Assembly: GCA_025024175.1 (NCBI GenBank)
Contig: QCXZ01000042.1
Span: 8,263,501 to 8,327,500 of the forward strand
Reading direction: 5' to 3'
DNA from: Rhyzopertha dominica
Taxonomy: Eukaryota > Arthropoda > Insecta > Coleoptera > Bostrichidae
Length of the DNA stretch: 64,000 nucleotides
Positions within the stretch are counted from its first letter, which is position 1. Each line of letters begins with the position of its first letter. The translations under genes were made by a program, and so were the position numbers. A model generated the notes under the pieces. The model did not search any database. It saw only the letters and a program-made list of their open reading frames with translations, and was not told where the DNA came from. This document shows, piece after piece, positions 1,082-63,322 of the stretch.

Positions 1082-1190
1082 CAGTTATACACGGTGTTGT
1101 CAGATCAGCAAGGTATATTTTGAATCATAAAGATTGTTGCAGAATGGATCTAAACAGACAAATCTATATTATGAAAGTAAGAATTTAGGA
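1082..1190 (+). repeat. Possible remnant of a second, ribozyme-less unit
   Basis: The first 20 bases (CAGTTATACACGGTGTTGTC) resemble the left edge of the hammerhead unit at 1344-1363. The 13-mer AAATCTATATTAT at 1160-1172 recurs at 1464-1476 on the right edge of that unit, followed in both places by GTAA and GAATT. The middle does not align and is about 42 bp shorter. This could be a decayed tandem copy that lost the ribozyme core, or a chance match in AT-rich DNA. Confidence 0.25.
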
Positions 1191-1349
1191 TGGCAATGCC
1201 ATCTGTCAGCATTACACTGACATGATGACAAAGCCACCTAGCTGCCTTAACGGGAACTACTTCCTAAAGTAAGTGACCTGTAGCCTGACAAATTGGCATG
1301 CAACTGCATACTTCAATTTGACAGCAGGCCCCCACGGCAAAACCAGTTC

Positions 1350-1451
1350 TATGCCGTGTTGTCTACACTAGACCTAAACTGCACTGATGAGCTGTAATGA
1401 CAGCGAAATAGTACTATCTGCAGTTGGTTGAGGTGTAGACAGCACAGCATA
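1350..1451 (+). ncRNA. Hammerhead ribozyme, type I (complete core)
   Basis: Predicted self-cleaving RNA motif. The core box CUGAUGA lies at 1384-1390. Stem II is GCUGU (1391-1395), tetraloop AAUG (1396-1399) and ACAGC (1400-1404). The second core box GAA is 1405-1407. Stem III is AUAG (1408-1411), a two-base loop UA, and CUAU (1414-1417), so A15.1-U16.1 is present. The cleavage-site nucleotide (H17) is C1418, with scission predicted before U1419. Inner stem I pairs AACUGCA (1377-1383) perfectly with UGCAGUU (1419-1425). After an internal loop (1369-1376 and 1426-1432), an outer stem I pairs 1350-1368 with 1433-1451: 17 Watson-Crick pairs, one G-U and one mismatch. Stem I is the open stem, hence type I. 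The tiny stem III is typical of metazoan ribozymes carried by SINE-like repeats, Penelope-like elements and retrozymes (established knowledge). Activity is inferred, not shown. The repeat unit seems to extend over roughly 1344-1476. Confidence 0.85.
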
Positions 1452-1476
1452 GACATGCATTTTAAATCTATATTAT

Positions 1477-2944: not shown

Positions 2945-3290
2945 TTCTTAAAGCGTCAACTGATGAAACCAGTTCAATCTAGAGTCAAGAAAAACGCCCA
3001 GAAACTTACCTTAAGTACATTGATATTACTTTCCGTGTACCTATTTAATAGTAAAGCTTATAAATAGTTTTAATACCATTCAGCGCAAGCTTCTTTGTTT
3101 TTTTTATAGTGATATGGGAAGTATCATACGTAAACTAGACTAAAGCACTTGTGCATACTTGAGTTGATGTCACTGATTAAGAAAACAAACAGTATAGGTC
3201 CTAGAACTGACCGCTGCGGAACACCGTTCCGTACTTTTCGATGTTTTGACTCTGGGTCACAGGGAATGAGCCAAAATTCGTATGGATCTA
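2945..3290 (-). pseudogene. LINE reverse transcriptase fragment
   Basis: On the minus strand, 3225 down to about 3120 reads GVPQRSVLGPILF followed by a YV-stop-Y sequence. This matches the GVPQGSVLGPILF motif (RT domain 4) and a mutated YADD box of non-LTR retrotransposons. The G of PQG is replaced by R and the first catalytic Asp codon is a stop. Further downstream in the element's sense (3008 to 2953), FLGVFLDSRLNW matches the segment after the YADD domain, so most sequence between the two has been deleted. It is an inactive relic with no start or end visible. Confidence 0.7.
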
Positions 3291-5059
3291 AATTAATGAT
3301 CAGCGTAAATACATTTTAACAGTTTTAAATAAGTTAAATCTTTTGGGCCATTACGGTACCCAACCTTTTGATACTAATCTAATTTTTCTTATTCTGACTT
3401 ATTTTTTTCTATAAAAAATAACAGTATTTTCATTTCTGGATATACAATAAATATAGATATAAATATAAATAGATAATAAATGCTGTAGAAATAAACTACT
3501 TCTGTAATTCTGAACAATTATTTTTAATAAAGTATTCAATGTGTTCAAGGAATGCTCAACTTGCTCTAGCTGAAGGACAGCAGTGCCAATGTAATCGCTA
3601 ATATTCCATGCAAGAAGCTACATGTACGTCTATATAAGAACGTTCGGGGACTGATTCAGTTTTTTTTTAATGGCATTGTATTGTATTTGTATCCTGCTTA
3701 TTCAATTGAAGGCATTGTTCGAGGAATAAAATAAAATCACTAACTTTTTATGTCGGATTTTCATTATATATTAAATTCCAAGCAAAATGTTATTAGATAC
3801 ATATGCCTTAAACAAACATGGTATATTACCCTAAGATTCAAAATGGGTGAGCGTGATGACTCTACCATATACATAAAAAATTTCACCCAACTAACATAAG
3901 AATCACAGAGTGTTTAAGTAGCTTTATGAATATTTAATTTGCCAAATGTTGTGTAAGTAAAACCGTTGTAAAACTTAGCTGGCCCAATGGTAGTTCCTGG
4001 TTGCAACTTAATATCTTAATAACTTAAATCTCTCTTGTGCGAATGCTGTCAAAATACTGACTAAGCATATCAATCACTTTTGATAACGAGCAATTTCACT
4101 TCTTTTTAGGTATTTCCTAACAGTTAAGATGGAAGATTCATTGAAAATTGCTTTTTAAACAGGAACATAAGTTTAACCAAATAAAGCGGCTAGTCTGTGC
4201 CGCAGCAGTTCTTTCCATGCGAAAATCTCCAAATTTACAACGGAGAAAGCCATTTTTGCATAAAAAAACTCCTACACCTGCTCATCCAAACATTCGCAGA
4301 CTTATATACGACGAAGCTAAGTGTGTCCCTGGGCTAAAATTAATGAATATCGAATTCATCTTTGTCCACCCACGATTCCAAATTCATAAACGGTGATGTC
4401 AGGGGTCACATTCTTTGCGACCACGAAAATTAACAGGATGAGTACAATGCACGGAATTGTGTAACGTTTTCTCCTCGACGAAGAAGTTTTCCGTTGGATG
4501 CGATGCGACTGTGTCAGGAGATTAAATATTTTGTTAATGCTCAATCATGCATTTATTCATGAACGGAGCCCTTTCATAGACAAGTGTGGGCAAATAATTT
4601 GTGTAGGGAAACAAAAGAATAAAATGAGGGATGTGCTCTCTTCTATTAAGTACCCAATGAACTGATTTCCCAAAATTTAAGATTGTCATCTGTTATACAT
4701 AATTTATAATTTTGTCCTTGATTTTTAAAAATCGTTTAAATACAATTGCACAGTAAGTGTGAAACTGTGGTTTTGGTATGATTCGTAAGAAGTACAAAAA
4801 TCTTGCGCAGTAACCAGGGTAACAAATAGATCTAAAATGCAGCATTTCCGTCACTGTAAACGACTTTAGGAAATTTTACCGTCACAGGTCAAGGAGAACT
4901 CTGCCACGTTAGGAAAGGGATTCAGTAGCTATAAAATTTGCTTTAACAAAAAAAAATCTTGGCAGTATAGATGGTTGCAATATTGAAGCACCATAAGGAT
5001 TGATGGTAAAGACAGCCATTCATGTATACCTCTCGAAGTAGTGCTTGCTGGAATAAACG
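3291..5059. other. AT-rich non-coding stretch
   Basis: No gene or element could be supported. There is A/T simple sequence around 3440-3480. An 82-codon open frame at 4148-4396 has no family features. Confidence 0.45.
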
Positions 5060-12510: not shown

Positions 12511-13454
12511 TATTTATTTAATCGTGTCTGAGCTACACTTTTTACATCAATAACTAGAGAGTAAGTAAACATAATAACATATAGACAGAAATAGGTATAA
12601 ATAAAAACACATAAAAGTATAAAACACATAAAAGTATACGACGTTCACAAGCGTCACAAGTCAGGTTGGTTGGTTAGATAGCTCATATCTCCTTCCAGTG
12701 TCTGGCACATTGCACTGCCGCATCATTCGCCTCCCACAGGTCCTGAATAGTGCAAGGAGTCTGTAGGGATGGACAGGACAGAAGGTGTTCCATCGTTTGT
12801 GTCTCTCCACAGACGCATGAGTCGTCCTCGGCATATCCCCATCTTAGCAAGTTATCTCCGGATCTTCCCATTTGGCATCTGATTCTGTTGAGGTTTTTCC
12901 AGGTCTTCCAGTCTAGTTGGGATCCGGCAGGAAGATGTTCTGTTGGGTTCCATGGGGAGATGTTGTTTTCTACCAGCCGCTGTCTCCACATTGCTTCTTT
13001 GGCAGCCGATTTGGAGTCTGTCATTGGGTTGGTGGACCTTATGAAACTCTTCCGGGATTTGAGTCTAGAGGGTGGGGTCTCATGTCCGTATAGTGGGTGT
13101 CTTTCATCCAGTGCCTGTCTACTTCGTTCTGCCATGCATAAGGCCTGTCGCCTGATTTGAGGGGGAGCTATTCCCGCTAACATATATAGGTGGTCCAGAT
13201 TAGATGGTTTTAGGCAGCCTGTGATCAATCTGCAAGAGTCATTTAGGATGGGATCTATTTTGCTGGCATGTGTCGATCTAGACCATACAGGGCATGCATA
13301 TTCGGCCGGGGCAAAACAAAGGGCAAGGGATGTTGATCGTAATACATCCGGTTGGGCCCCCCAGTGGGAACTGACGAGCTTACGGACAACACCATTCCTT
13401 GTATTAACTTTTGCTCTAGTTTTCTCCACACTGAGCTACACAGTAGTATTGAAC
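12511..13454 (-). mobile_element. 5'-truncated LINE copy with 13-bp TSD
   Basis: The element is bounded by identical 13-mers TCTAATGTATGTT at 12498-12510 and 13455-13467, a target-site duplication made by target-primed reverse transcription. It carries the C-terminal part of a LINE ORF2, then a 3' untranslated region of about 170 bp. That region has a 17-bp tandem repeat (ACACATAAAAGTAT words near 12606-12638) and ends in an AAATAAATA-rich tail next to the target. Truncation at the 5' side is the usual result of aborted reverse transcription. The uninterrupted 3' ORF and the perfect TSD suggest a younger insertion than the other LINE pieces here. Confidence 0.85.
12683..13432 (-). pseudogene. 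LINE ORF2 C-terminal region (Jockey-like)
   Basis: About 248 codons are open without interruption to the stop at 12683, but the reading frame has no true start because the element is 5'-truncated. The protein begins after the catalytic RT motifs. It has the conserved RTS/ALxxxPAEYACPVWSRS segment (thumb region; HWGAQPDVLRS precedes it), then ILNDSCRLITGCL and GIAPPxIRR. It ends with a Cys/His cluster: C-x-C-G-x(3)-QTMEHLL-x-C, a zinc-knuckle-like motif common at the C-terminus of Jockey-type proteins. No endonuclease or YADD box remains, so it cannot act alone. It is related to, but a different family from, the element at 15795-17680. Confidence 0.85.
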
Positions 13455-15399: not shown

Positions 15400-15790
15400 A
15401 ACCACAAAGTCACCGACATCACCACAGAATGTGATCAGTGGCAACCAATCTGAATTAACAACTATTATTAAAGGAGTCCAGCATAGCAGTATCCTAGGTC
15501 CCCTTCTATTTTCTATATAAACTGCTGATTTTTGAAAGTCTCTTAATTTCTGCAATTCCCATCAATATGCCGACGATACTCAAATATACTGTTCGTTTTT
15601 CCTTAAGGAAAGAAATGTCGCTGCCAGAATGATTAATTCTCACTTATATACTGATATACAGCAGGTTTCTCACTTACATGGACTCACTCTTAAAGGACCA
15701 AAAACAGAAATTGTCGCATTTGGTCCTGGCCGGCAAGTCATATTAGAACCAACCGTTAATGAAACATATAAACTATCATCATTAATTTCG
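15400..15790 (+). pseudogene. LINE reverse transcriptase fragment (family B)
   Basis: The plus strand reads NQSELTTIIKGVQHSSILGP, LLFSI-stop-TADF and then HQYADDTQIYCSF, equivalent to the GVPQGSILGPLLF and YADD motifs of a non-LTR RT. The catalytic YADD is intact (around 15567-15578). After a frameshift, MINSHLYTDIQQVSHLHGLTL and PKKT-like GPKTEIVAFGPGRQ continue the post-YADD region. The stop inside FSI-x-TADF and the degenerate PQG (QHSS) show it is dead. It ends where the next LINE begins, near 15790, in the same orientation. Confidence 0.75.
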
Positions 15791-15794
15791 CTTA

Positions 15795-16235
15795 ATGTTT
15801 TTAAAAAAGATGAAGGAAAAACTTCGTCAGTTAAGAAAAAGATGCGAACCTTCAGTAGAGTTGTCACAATTATTCTCATTCGAAGAACTTCGGCAAGCTA
15901 TTTGTGCTCTCAAAGCCCGCAAAGCTGCTGGTTTTGACGGTATTTATCCAGGATTCTTGAAGAACTTGGGACCGAATGCTTTAAAATGGTTGTTGTTGTT
16001 CTATAATAATATTTTAGATACATATACTCTGACAAGTTTGCTTCAGAAAACAAAGGTGATTGCCCTTCTGAGTGTCTGCCACAAGTTACTAGAGAAATTA
16101 CTCTGCCAGAGAATAGGACCTATTACTGAAGACTCATTCCCGAAGGATCAAGCAGGTTTTAGGAAGAACAGATGTTGCTGTGACCAAGTCTTGGCTCTAA
16201 CAATGCATTCTGAAGTTGGTTTCCAGAAACATTGA
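15795..16235 (+). pseudogene. LINE RT, N-terminal palm/fingers part
   Basis: The frame reads FSFEELRQAICALKARKAAGFDGI, the RT domain 1 signature (K-x-x-K-A-x-G-x-D-G-I). PGFLKNLGPNALKWLL and LLQKTKVIALL follow, then directly SVCHKLLEKLLCQRI and DQAGFRKNRCCCDQV (domain 3 region). About 18 codons with the usual KPGKDP...SYRPISLL motif are missing between ALL and SVCHK, consistent with deletion between two LL-coding repeats. The frame ends just past GFQKH by a one-base frameshift; the continuation is the fragment starting at 16232. Confidence 0.8.
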
Positions 16236-16540
16236 AAACTGGAGTAGTGTGCATAGACTTATCGGCGGTCTATGATACTGCATGGAAAGATGGATTGATC
16301 CTCAAACTATTTAATACTCTGAAAAGTGGAAAGATTGTGAAGCTCATTGAGCGAATGTTGTCCCAACGTCAATTCAGAGTGTTTCTGGGAGAGAAAAGTA
16401 GCAAATTCAGGATTTTGAATAACGGTCTTCCACAAGGATCGGTTCTGTCACCTATTCTTTTCAACCTTTACATAAGTGACCTTCCAGTAACTCAATCGAG
16501 AAAATTTGTGTATGCAGACGACATGGCATTGACTTTATAA
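16232..16540 (+). pseudogene. LINE RT catalytic palm part
   Basis: The frame contains CIDLSAVYDTAWKDGL (motif A, catalytic Asp at 16256-16258), LNNGLPQGSVLSPILFNLYI (domain 4) and FVYADDMALTL (motif C, YADD at 16511-16522). All three catalytic aspartates survive. The frame ends at TAA 16538-16540, where SKDF continues in the same frame after the stop, so this is a point nonsense change and not the natural end. Confidence 0.85.
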
Positions 16541-16604
16541 AGTAAAGACTTTTCTGTCCTTAAACAAAATCTTTCAAGAGACATTGAGATTATGAATTTT
16601 AAAG

Positions 16605-17480
16605 CCTGGCGCCTGCGCTTGTTTTCATCTCAACAAACATCAAAAATCGAAACAACTTCAAGTTATGTCAAATAATATAATTCTTAACCAGAACTTCTCG
16701 ACGAAATACCTTGGAGTGACCCTAGATACGTCTCTGACGTACGAAGAAACATCTAGAAAACATCAGTATAAAAAATTACAGACCAGAAATAGCATTCTGC
16801 ATCAGCTTCCTGGTACAAGTTGTGGTGCAGATGCAAGTGTACTCCGTACTTCTGCAACTGCCTTGCTTTGTAGCATTGCTGAGTACTGCTATCCCGTTTG
16901 GAAAAACAGGAAAAACTGACACTCAACTGAATTCTGCAATGTCACTTATCGTGAACAATTAAGTCAACTCCATCAATTTGACTTCCGATTCCTTCAAACA
17001 TTACTCCTCCGGAGATTCGCACACAGTTTGCTACGTATAAGGATTGGCAAAAATAACAGCAGCTCCTAATGAGTTTCTGATTTCACGAGATCTGCAAGTT
17101 ACCTACAATCCAGCTAACTTGCAGAAACCCTCTGTTGACAGAAGATTTCCTGCGTGCTCCTTATACCATTGAAGATGAATGGTATTCTGCTTGGCAACTT
17201 AAGAAATATGATATATTCAATCAACAGCTTATAGACGATCCTACAGAAAAGGTAGCAGGAACTGACTTCCCGAAAAAGTTTTGGGTTACTCTAAATCACC
17301 GTCGCACTAGTCATGGGAAATGCAACTTTTTTCTTACTAAATGGAATTCTTTTATCAATCCTTGCTTGTGAAACTGGAGACCCCCTCCAAACAATTGAGC
17401 ATATGGTCATGCATGGTTCTGCATCTATCCATCGTGTTAATGAAGATGTTGAAGACTGGCTTAAGACCATCGAGATCTGA
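16605..17480 (+). pseudogene. LINE ORF2 thumb and C-terminal part
   Basis: Pieces in shifting frames: KYLGVTLDTSLTYEE and LRTSATALLCSIAEYCYPVW (16665-16919), then APYTIEDEW and KKFWVTLNHRRTSHGKCNFF (17135-17330). Finally CETGDPLQTIEHMVMHG leads to VEDWLKTIEI-stop at 17480. The order matches the Jockey-type C-terminus, with the Cys/His cluster partly retained. A deletion of about 28 bp near 16618 removed the NPxKTEV segment that the sister copy at 19050 still has. Confidence 0.8.
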
Positions 17481-18740: not shown

Positions 18741-19049
18741 GCTTGGTTCAATAATTTCCTTTTTTTTTCTAATTCTTAACCATGATTTACCTCACTAGGT
18801 ATTTCAGTTTGCGATATAGTGCGCTAACACTCTGCTGAAAGATAATAATGCATTTTATACCCAACAGAAAATTCCATTAACAGGATAAAAAACAATTGTT
18901 TTGCGTAAATACACTGTATAGCAATATACTATTCAATTAAATAACAATAATAATGATACATTATACAATATCTACTATTGCAGGTGTGAGGTCCAAAACC
19001 TAGCGTCCCAAATTATGCTTGTTTTTTACATAAATTATGAGTACTAACC

Positions 19050-19605
19050 TGGCGCATGTGCCCTAATCCATTGAAGACAGAAGTAACTTGCTTTCATCTC
19101 AACAATCATCAAAAGAGGAAACAGCTTCAAGTTATGTCAAATAACATAATTCTTAAACATAACTTCTCGCCAAAAAACCTTGGAGTGACTCTAAATACGT
19201 CTCTAACGTACAAGAAACATCTAGAAAACGTCAGTAAAAAATTACAGACTAGAAATAACATTCTGCATAAGCTTGCTGGTACAAGTTGGGGTGCAAATGC
19301 AAATGTACTCCGTACTTCTGCAACTGCCTTGCTTTATAGCACTGTTGCTGCTGTTGATGCAGGTGTTAAAGACTGGCTTAAGAAAATAGAGATCTGATTG
19401 GAGTTTTCTGCGGTTTTCTTCAATACTCTATCCAGAATAAATACATACATGTATGTATCTATTATGGATAAAGCGCAAATGCGAGATCTCTTAACGTTGA
19501 ATGATAATATTTTTTTTCTTTCAAAGCTTTTATAAAAGTCGACCGTAGTCGCATGAAATTAACAGTACTGTGGAATGTATTAATGATTTCATTAGAATAT
19601 ATATA
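19050..19605 (+). mobile_element. Internally deleted sister LINE copy
   Basis: The frame reads NPLKTEVTCFHLNN, KNLGVTLNTSLTYKKHLENV, KLQTRNNILHKLAGTSWGAN and LRTSATALLYST. It then jumps straight to VKDWLKKIEI-stop at 19396. Compared with 16605-17480, about 560 bp between the equivalents of 16877 and 17440 are gone, yet the frame stays open (113 codons from 19056). The 3' untranslated region aligns with 17481-17680, including the ATACATGTAT palindromic words and AAAGTCGACCGTAGTCGCAT. Same family and orientation as the copy 1.4 kb upstream. Confidence 0.85.
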
Positions 19606-57204: not shown

Positions 57205-58177
57205 AAAAAACAGATATGATTTTGATTTATGGTGAATGCAAGAAAAATGCCTACGCTGCTGCCCGTTTATACAGACAACATTTCCAAATAGAAGAGCTTC
57301 TGCCGATACAATTTTCAAGAGACTTGAATTAACTTTAAGGACAAACTGGCCACCACTAAAAGGTCAAGAGAAAGAACAGGCCCTGACAATGAAATTAGAG
57401 TATTGGAAATGATTAACGAAAATCCACATATTAGTCTGCCTTCAGTGCACCGAATAATTAAAGGCAATCAATTTCATCCGTATCACTTGCAATTGGTTCA
57501 GGCCTTAAAGGAGACAGATTATCCTAAAAGAGTGGCTTTTTGCAACTTTTTTCGGGAACACCAAAATTTGAATGTGAGATTTTATGACATTTGCTTCTCA
57601 GATGAGGCAAGATTTTCTAATAATGGTGGAGTTAAGAAACATAACATGTATTATTATGCGCAAGAAAATCCACGTTGGATTCGAGAAGGACATTTTCAAC
57701 TATCTATTCGACGAATGCCTCGTGCGGAATATTGGAGAATCATATTGTTAGGCCTTATTTTTTTCGCGACAGTTTAAACGGTAATACTTATCTAAATTTT
57801 TTAAGAAACATTTTACTGGTACTTTTCCAAAATGTAAATTTAGAAGTAAGACAAGATGGGGCACCTGCGCATTATCATAGAATAGTGCGAAATCATCTTG
57901 ATTTGGTTTTGCCTAAGCGATGGATAGGAAGGGGTTCAATTAATCCTTGCCCACCGAGAAGCCCCGACCTTACTCCTTTGGATTTTTTTTCTGTAGGAAA
58001 TGGTAAAAGAGTATACCAAATACCAATTGAAAGTGTAGAACATTTAGAAAATAAAATATGTGATGCATGTAGATCCATCACTCCAGAAATGTTAAAGCAT
58101 GTTAAAAGATTGTTTTGAGCACGAATTCAAGCTTGTGAAAACCGGGAAGGACCACATCTTGAGCATTTCTTACATTA
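57205..58177 (+). pseudogene. Tc1/mariner-like transposase, near full length (DUF4817 type)
   Basis: Starts in DMILIYGECKKNAYAAARLYRQ (57213-57278), the DUF4817 helix-turn-helix entry. It continues KRSRERTGPDNEIRVLEMINENP, SVHRIIKGNQFHPYHLQLVQAL and YPKRVAFCNFF, then the catalytic blocks. First acidic: CFSDEARFSNNGG. RENP-like block: QENPRWIRE. Then GILENHIVRPYFF, NTYLNFLRNILL, second: RQDGAPAHYH, RWIGRG, third: PPRSPDLTPLDFF, and the C-terminal ACRSITPEMLKHV...GPHLEHFL-stop at 58177. All three acidic residues remain. It is broken by a frameshift near 57700, loss of the MWFQ segment before QDGA, a short deletion in the second HTH (usual SQTSVHRIL), a stop after KRLF (58116-58118) and a frame shift near 57300. 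AATAAA at 58186-58191 could be its polyadenylation signal. Terminal inverted repeats were not recognised. Confidence 0.9.
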
Positions 58178-61514: not shown

Positions 61515-61540
61515 AATACTGATTACCTAAAATGTCTTTC

Positions 61541-61640
61541 TGTGCTATGCTGTCTGCAGCACAACCAACCACACACGGATCCACTTCGCTTTTGTTAAAG
61601 CGCATAAGTACAGTTTAGGTCTAGTGCAGATAGCATGGCA
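61541..61640 (-). ncRNA. Hammerhead ribozyme copy 2 (core mutated)
   Basis: Read on the minus strand it aligns with 1350-1451 at nearly equal length. Outer stem I: ATGCTATCTGCAC against GTGCTGCAGACAGCAT. The unpaired TAGACCTA and the start of inner stem I AACTGTA are conserved. Stem II is GCUUU-AACA-AAAGC, where the G-C pair of copy 1 is replaced by U-A. Stem III is GUGG-AU-CCGU. Core changes: CUUAUGC instead of CUGAUGA (two invariant positions altered) and G at the cleavage position instead of A/C/U. It should therefore be inactive. The flank after stem I (ATTTTAGGTAATC) resembles ATTTTAAATC at 1459-1468, so the repeat reaches about 61515. Confidence 0.75.
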
Positions 61641-63322
61641 TTATATATTACAGAATTTCAGAGGAAGTTAACTTTACCCTGGTAGNTCGGTATGTACTAT
61701 GTACCTGAACGTTATAATACTTACAGATACAGCAGAATACCACTGTGTTTTAGCAGAACGGGCAAATACCGTAATATAAATAAAAATGGGAGGAAGAGGA
61801 AGTAGTTCTCTTAGCAGCGACTAGATTGTTTTGTCATCGTTTCCACTAACAGAAAATAGTAAATGACCAATGACTTTTTATTGTGTTCAGTTCTAATGCA
61901 GCTATATACTTTATTCAGACAAATCAATTTTTAAATATTAATCACAAAAATATGTTAAGCTGCGAAACTCACATGGATTTTTGAAAATGGACTTACATTA
62001 AACCTATTATTACTACTACAGAAATTCTACAAGAACATCTATATAGACTTTAGGTATGTTTGTTATACGAAAAATATGCAATTTGTTGTGTATGAGGACG
62101 ATCCGTTAATAATTTTCGACACTGAGCATCTAATTCCAGCCAGCCTGAAGAGATGATGGTCTGTTTCAAATTCCTAGATAAAAAATAACTCTCCTCTGTG
62201 TTACAAATAACAAATACCTACTTATTCACATAAAAATCTTCCGCAGCTTGACAGCTCTATGTTTATAACAAGTATTTACCGAAAAATTAGTCTATTGACT
62301 TTGCAGGATCTATACGTTATAAAGCCAGTTTGCGTTTCAGTAGAAACAGGGCTTTCATTCAAGCAATGCGGATAAACGACCTCGGCAACAGAAGTTCAAA
62401 TATTTGCGCTGTTTTACCGTGGCTAGGCAAACATGATTTCACTTTTAAAAATACAGTATTTATCCAGTGTAGTAGGCTGAGGTCCTTTATTGATTTGCAC
62501 AACGTTCAAATAGGCTTTTTACTANCGTTTTTAAAAGTGCAAACAGAATTTACACACGTGAGCTATAAACTGTAAAATGGCGGTAAGCTACTGCTTCCTG
62601 CAACAGCAGGGTATGACGCATATATTTATCAACGATGGTGCGTTGACTAGCAAAGAAGGATTGCCCACATGCTCGATCTGTTGAAGTGCTTTTATCCTAT
62701 ATATAAAAAAACGATCTTTCGCTACACTGTGGTTAATTTATTGTTCTCATATACCCACAAAAAAAGGTCTCTGTTTCTTGAATTTGCTGCATATTTAAAA
62801 GTCGTGATGTATACCTCGTTTTGCGTTTCGGTTTCCGTATTTCACAATAATTGTTGCTATATAGCCTTGCATGCTGTCAAGTGCAGTTTTTTATTACTGC
62901 TGAATGTATCGAATTGTGTCGGTCCGCCCCTATATCTGAAAAAAATCACGTCACGTAAACGTAATGCGCGATCACGTCATGGCACCTGAAGTATTTCATA
63001 AACCGGAATCGTTGCGTCCATACAGACAGAAAACACAAATCCAGTCAACCGGACTATGGGCAAAAAAACCTCAGTCATACCTATCGATATTCCGAGATAT
63101 TTCCGTCATGCAAAAGCATAACGCCGGCAGTAATCGCTTCATTTTCAGGATATACGTTTGAGAGCTTTTAAGTTCGCATGAATTTTACGTATAATACAGC
63201 TAAAAATAGTGGGAAGAACTGGTTTTTTTTTAATCACTAGACCTTTTAAACGGAAATATGTTCTATGATAAAAAAGATGTTTCTTAAAATCACAATTTTA
63301 ATTGTCTTAACTAATAAATTTA
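61641..63322. other. Non-coding stretch
   Basis: Ns at 61686 and 62525. A moderately GC-balanced part lies at 62580-63170. No gene or element recognised. Confidence 0.4.

Follow-up and report, generated by a model that had tools for sequence, protein, structure and literature searches.

Within the window, that is, the whole 64,000-nucleotide stretch of Rhyzopertha dominica DNA analyzed here, we found two copies of a short element that carries a hammerhead module: copy A, enclosed by an exact 13-bp direct repeat and with its catalytic core in place, and copy B, on the minus strand, whose core has decayed (Table 1). The type I features found in copy A are (i) the CUGANGA and GAA boxes, (ii) A15.1 and U16.1 (1408 and 1417), (iii) a cleavable H17, here C17, and (iv) three helices, of which stem I is open-ended. 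The initial annotation had located every core base (CTGATGA, GAA, U16.1 and C17) where we find it. Its perfect 5-bp stem II with an AAUG loop (1391-1395 with 1400-1404) and its 7-bp inner stem I were likewise confirmed, as was an outer stem I of 19 positions with one mismatch, in which 1351-1369 and 1432-1450 form 18 pairs interrupted at 1355/1446. Pairing continues outwards to 1348/1453 and inwards between 1371-1374 and 1426-1429, for a total of 25 outer pairs, and the predicted fold contains both an internal loop in stem I and the AAUG loop on stem II. The 4-bp stem III that had been described stands insofar as four complementary pairs exist (1408-1411 with 1414-1417, in the self-complementary AUAGUACUAU), but these would enclose a loop of 2 nt, so that as a hairpin helix III more likely has 3 bp closed by GUAC. 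At the sequence level, the assignment of copy A to the type I hammerheads is supported, with cleavage predicted after C1418.

Table 1. Coordinates of the two element copies and of the parts of the hammerhead module.
Feature	Position	Strand	Basis
Direct repeat, left copy (AAATCTATATTAT), probable target-site duplication	1160..1172	+	exact 13-mer
Copy A, 291-bp element	1173..1463	+	direct repeat; right edge also end of similarity with copy B
Upstream block, copy A	1219..1265	+	local alignment with copy B
Outer stem I, 5' side, extended (25 pairs with 1426-1453)	1348..1374	+	fold and pairing
Inner stem I, 5' strand (partner 1419-1425)	1377..1383	+	architecture scan and pairing
Core CUGAUGA	1384..1390	+	sequence
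Stem II, 5 bp, AAUG loop; one both-sides change relative to copy B	1391..1404	+	pairing comparison
Core GAA	1405..1407	+	sequence
Helix III (AUAGUACUAU); 3 bp as hairpin, 10 bp between two molecules	1408..1417	+	scan and fold
C17, predicted cleavage after this base	1418..1418	+	sequence
Inner stem I, 3' strand	1419..1425	+	architecture scan and pairing
Outer stem I, 3' side, extended	1426..1453	+	fold and pairing
Direct repeat, right copy	1464..1476	+	exact 13-mer
Copy B hammerhead module; 114 nt aligned at 75% identity, most stem pairing retained, catalytic core decayed	61528..61641	-	BLAST and pairing
Upstream block, copy B	61797..61843	-	local alignment with copy A

The view that such an assembly is very unlikely to arise by chance was borne out. 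A scan of both strands for the type I arrangement only (stem I of at least 5 bp, stem II of at least 4 and helix III of at least 3) returned a single site in the window, and 300 dinucleotide-preserving shuffles, amounting to 38.4 Mb over both strands, returned none. The bare core CTGANGA...GAAA is not rare, with seven occurrences against 3.5 expected and six of 100 shuffles reaching seven, and the evidential weight therefore rests on the stems. Folding of 1340-1470 gave a z-score of -7.2, equalled by none of 200 shuffles. The covariance check against Rfam that had been proposed went the other way, as no family reached its gathering score in the window. The best match, obtained when 1250-1550 was searched alone, was to RF02275 (Hammerhead_HH9), to which copy A aligns end to end at 28 bits, below the gathering score of 52; its E-value of 3.8e-5 for 301 bases becomes about 0.008 for 64 kb by simple scaling. 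This family is an intronic hammerhead of amniotes. Matches to microRNA precursors (mir-592 in copy A, 14.8 bits, E 2.8; mir-1789 in copy B, 14.5 bits, E 4.5) were regarded as chance.

Copy B was recovered by a BLAST search of 1100-1560 against the window (61641-61528, E 1.5e-17). It lies about 60 kb from copy A. Four of its core positions are substituted (U for G5, C for A9, G for A15.1 and G for C17), so that it falls outside the type I core pattern and should be dead, and an Rfam search of this copy gave no hammerhead match. The stems tell a different story: copy B retains 35 of the 38 pairs that copy A forms within the alignment (25 unchanged, six with a change on one side and four with changes on both), the three broken pairs all lying in the outer stem. 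In the hammerhead proper, i.e. inner stem I, stem II and helix III, all 16 pairs are kept, seven of them with changes. The four both-sides changes from A to B are G-C to A-U at 1356/1445, A-U to G-C at 1365/1436, G-C to U-A at 1394/1401 and A-U to G-C at 1410/1415. When the same substitutions were placed at random in 100,000 trials, at least 35 pairs were kept in a fraction of 5e-5 and at least four both-sides changes occurred in a fraction of 0.014; sliding the partners by one to three columns left at most one both-sides pair. A within-pair shuffle, a weak control with two sequences, reached the observed covariation in 39 of 500 cases. These paired changes suggest that the stems, extended stem I included, have been under structural constraint in this lineage. 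The structure would have been kept while the source was active, and the core of copy B was probably lost after insertion.

The long hairpin arms also match as inverted repeats of DNA, and could be accounted for by a DNA fold-back element or by a hairpin that arose by chance, whose hammerhead-like core would have no activity as a ribozyme; the frequency of the bare core and its loss in copy B could be read in the same sense. However, shuffling never reproduced the whole architecture, paired changes conserve stems II and III besides the long arms, and the core bases checked are all kept in copy A. We thus regard a DNA hairpin devoid of ribozyme function as highly improbable.

The left edge of copy A is set solely by the direct repeat, which is probably a target-site duplication. 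At random places with the same geometry, a repeat of at least 13 nt occurred in one of 3000 cases, possibly the copy A locus itself. In a second control, comparing the left flank with random pieces, 15 of 3000 pieces gave a match of at least 13 nt. Ten of these matches measured 33 or 61 nt and were attributed to the left flank being compared with itself; the other five measured 13 nt, and some of them may be the right repeat copy itself. The flanks of copy B share a direct match of 8 nt at most. The direct repeat might instead be the remainder of a second tandem unit, since a loose similarity extends beyond it, up to 28 nt at 75%; this fits less well, as 13 identical bases followed by a break are better explained by a target-site duplication. 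Both copies in the window are single rather than tandem and share the 3' end ...CATTTTA. They also share a collinear upstream block, whose strict core (1224-1265 in copy A) has an alignment score equalled in one of 2000 shuffles and three of 2000 window pieces, and which is separated from the module by 85 nt in copy A against 155 nt in copy B. Their 3' flanks have a best local match of 14 nt, a value without a control, and copies A and B therefore look like separate insertions rather than one duplicated segment.

In composition, copy A has 44.7% GC compared with 36.9% in its 500-bp flanks. Folded as a circle it reaches -101.4 kcal/mol, against -66.9 +/- 4.6 for 200 shuffles, none of which was as low, with 71% of its bases paired (58% in shuffles; 67% in its linear form). 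The 5' part alone (1173-1346) folds at -53.9 kcal/mol, against -37.4 +/- 3.9 in shuffles. The carrier, for which the initial annotation had no name and which it thought possibly new, can now be described as a dispersed repeat of short length that is probably bounded by a 13-bp target-site duplication and is present a second time in decayed form. A covariance model built from both copies and run over the window with filters off returned 26 matches, namely the two copies, their reverse strands (where the model meets the same hairpin in the opposite direction) and 22 weak matches at E of at least 0.049 that were taken as chance, with no convincing third copy. Patterns derived from the arms found no further copies in viral or genome contig collections, which says little, as these collections are mostly not animal DNA. 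A looser hammerhead pattern matched three viral contigs, which were dropped, having no Rfam match at the gathering score.

Remains of other mobile elements lie in the same window. On the minus strand, 12683-13435 is an open frame of 250 amino acids related to non-LTR reverse transcriptases, with no Pfam match; among 120 listed of 423 matches to its 249-aa stretch at 12683-13432, the best is from the beetle Callosobruchus chinensis (68%), and Gonioctena quinquepunctata reaches 67% over 53% of the query, consistent with the insect-like setting that had been proposed. The other named entries among these 120 are from a moth, an aphid, a psyllid, a sand fly, another beetle at 45% and two fishes. 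Broken reverse transcriptase pieces occupy 15536-16919 and 19041-19397 (plus strand; RVT_1 in two tested ORFs, one of them below the cut-off), the latter piece resembling by eye a second copy of the 16596-16919 part. A weak RVT_1 remnant (3127-3315, minus strand; E 0.0026, below the cut-off) lies about 1.7 kb from the hammerhead. A Tc3/mariner-like transposase spans two overlapping frames at 57328-58118 (plus strand); the best match of its ORF 57645-58118 is a JGI protein at 58%, and the named entries among 120 listed of 244 are other insects and spiders, with no beetle. As mobile elements may pass from one species to another, these protein matches point to a beetle host only weakly. At 1953-1985 there is an inverted repeat with 16-nt arms, 94% complementary and 1 nt apart.

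According to passages of PMC7761336, the hammerheads of Penelope-like elements are minimal, of type I, arranged in tandem and possibly active as dimers, and the module could be a detached pseudo-LTR piece of such an element. The helix III of copy A, weak in the predicted monomer fold as it is in these elements, would suit this origin, as would its AT-rich direct repeat, given that a Penelope-like enzyme prefers AT-rich sites (a passage of PMC11167929). On the other hand, both copies stop at the same 3' end and resemble each other over a short block further upstream, and those parts of PMC7761336 describe minimal Penelope hammerheads as usually without non-conserved bases in helix III, whereas copy A has a helix III of 3-4 bp. 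In agreement with the initial annotation, which saw no adjoining Penelope-type reverse transcriptase, the ORFs tested (10 of the 18 listed around copy A and 10 of the 20 around copy B, 20 of 38 in all) gave no match to a Penelope-type or GIY-YIG domain; a decayed remnant could lie in ORFs shorter than 58 amino acids or in the rest of those listed. On this evidence, a Penelope origin is unlikely.

Insertion of a SINE driven by a LINE leaves single copies with a common 3' end and direct repeats, which is the pattern seen here, including the 13-bp repeat. If the element were SINE-like, an uncut linear RNA would be the template and the hammerhead would serve to trim the RNA or to separate transcripts, with no circle involved; schistosome repeats with hammerheads contain a tRNA (PMC4918200, in part). 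Against this, ARAGORN found no tRNA in the window, Rfam gave for 1100-1345 just two matches, both sub-threshold and on the minus strand, and the promoter patterns gave a single weak match resembling an A box and a few loose ones to the B box, the full B-box pattern being absent. We consider a SINE-like element quite improbable.

Our preferred reading, to which we assign a probability of about 0.72, is that copy A represents a short non-autonomous retroelement, present as a monomer, of the kind known from animals as retrozymes, with a circle-based mechanism. The motif, its pairing, the second copy and the direct repeat are seen directly; cleavage, dimer action, multimers, circles and reverse transcription in trans are inferred steps, which would be ordered as follows. 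Transcription would yield RNA whose type I hammerhead cuts after C1418, alone or, as the palindrome in helix III suggests, paired with a second hammerhead, and multimeric transcripts would thereby release unit-length RNAs. These would be circularized by a host ligase, and a reverse transcriptase supplied by another retroelement would go round a circle about once from a start near the AUUUUA end, insertion then producing a target-site duplication of about 13 bp. Both copies contain the whole hammerhead module inside the element, with no half modules at the two ends, which points to a circle or an uncut RNA as the molecule copied, as a cut linear monomer used as template would leave half hammerheads at both ends. 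A single copy, with one self-cut, cannot give unit-length RNA, and multimers or other loci would therefore be needed.

Helix III bears on whether cutting would involve one molecule or two. In the predicted monomer fold of copy A its pair probability is 0.001 and the core is paired otherwise, while for two 49-nt cores the prediction is an exact double hammerhead joined by the palindrome of 10 nt; both energies leave out tertiary contacts. The gain in energy on dimerization is ordinary, 193 of 500 shuffles gaining as much, and the energy argument for dimer action was dropped, the palindrome alone remaining. In copy B, helix III (GUGGAUCCGU) differs from copy A at six of 10 bases and is self-complementary if G-U pairs are allowed, and its predicted dimer is not an exact double hammerhead. 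Since helix III of copy A is palindromic, the ribozyme might act as a dimer. Passages of PMC7229834 report better cutting as dimers for amphibian retrozymes, with their weak helix III and palindromic tetraloop, and call a two-pair helix III with a tetraloop similar to invertebrate ones; both these passages and others in PMC7761336 describe most invertebrate retrozyme hammerheads as cleaving well as monomers, and PMC7761336 credits most invertebrate hammerheads with a stable helix III. The three-pair helix III of copy A may thus be sufficient for cutting as a monomer. It is tempting to go further and to picture an insect retrozyme family whose members move singly and have fixed ends, reverse transcription making exactly one turn of the circle from an invariant priming site, the conserved extended stem I holding the ribozyme together and the palindromic helix III making cutting dependent on RNA concentration, but we hold this fuller scheme to be rather doubtful. 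From genomic copies of such a hammerhead element, single, with a common 3' end and probably with a target-site duplication, one could read where priming occurs and how many times the circle is travelled.

Hammerheads in repetitive DNA are described in other animals. None was reported for a beetle in the open-licence PMC literature on Coleoptera, Tribolium, Callosobruchus and beetle satellite DNA, as judged from titles and the beginnings of abstracts. In the cave crickets Dolichopoda, pDo500 (PMC2837043, in part) is likewise an insect hammerhead in repetitive DNA with compensatory changes and a proposed extended-stem-I form; it differs in being satellite DNA and in its proposed double form, where stems I and II are intermolecular and helix III stays within each molecule. 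The satellite hammerheads of newt and axolotl (HHR_Amex1, from sections of PMC7229834) resemble copy A in a weak helix III closed by a palindromic tetraloop and in a possible action as dimers, but theirs is a one-pair helix III in tandem repeats, as opposed to three pairs and two non-tandem copies in 64 kb here. The closest likeness is to animal non-LTR retrozymes, which the same sections describe as units of 170-400 nt with a type I hammerhead, less than 50% GC, no LTR and a highly self-paired RNA, with retrozyme-like repeats reported in insects too; their integration is treated, there and in PMC7761336, as a proposed model. Copy A agrees in its 291 nt and its GC content, if the direct repeat marks its ends, and in the extent of self-pairing as a circle. 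Target-site duplications of retrozymes, when present, are given as longer than the 4 bp of plants (PMC7229834), with 15 bp in Nematostella (PMC4918200); copy A has a probable one of 13 bp and no LTR was seen in it, and copy B has a repeat of at most 8 nt. Stem I of copy A is extended by 25 pairs, and our copies are single, whereas published animal retrozymes are usually tandem (PMC7229834). Altogether, the sequence evidence makes it most likely that the carrier is close to the published non-LTR retrozymes, as those sections of PMC7229834 portray them, and belongs to a kind of element already known.
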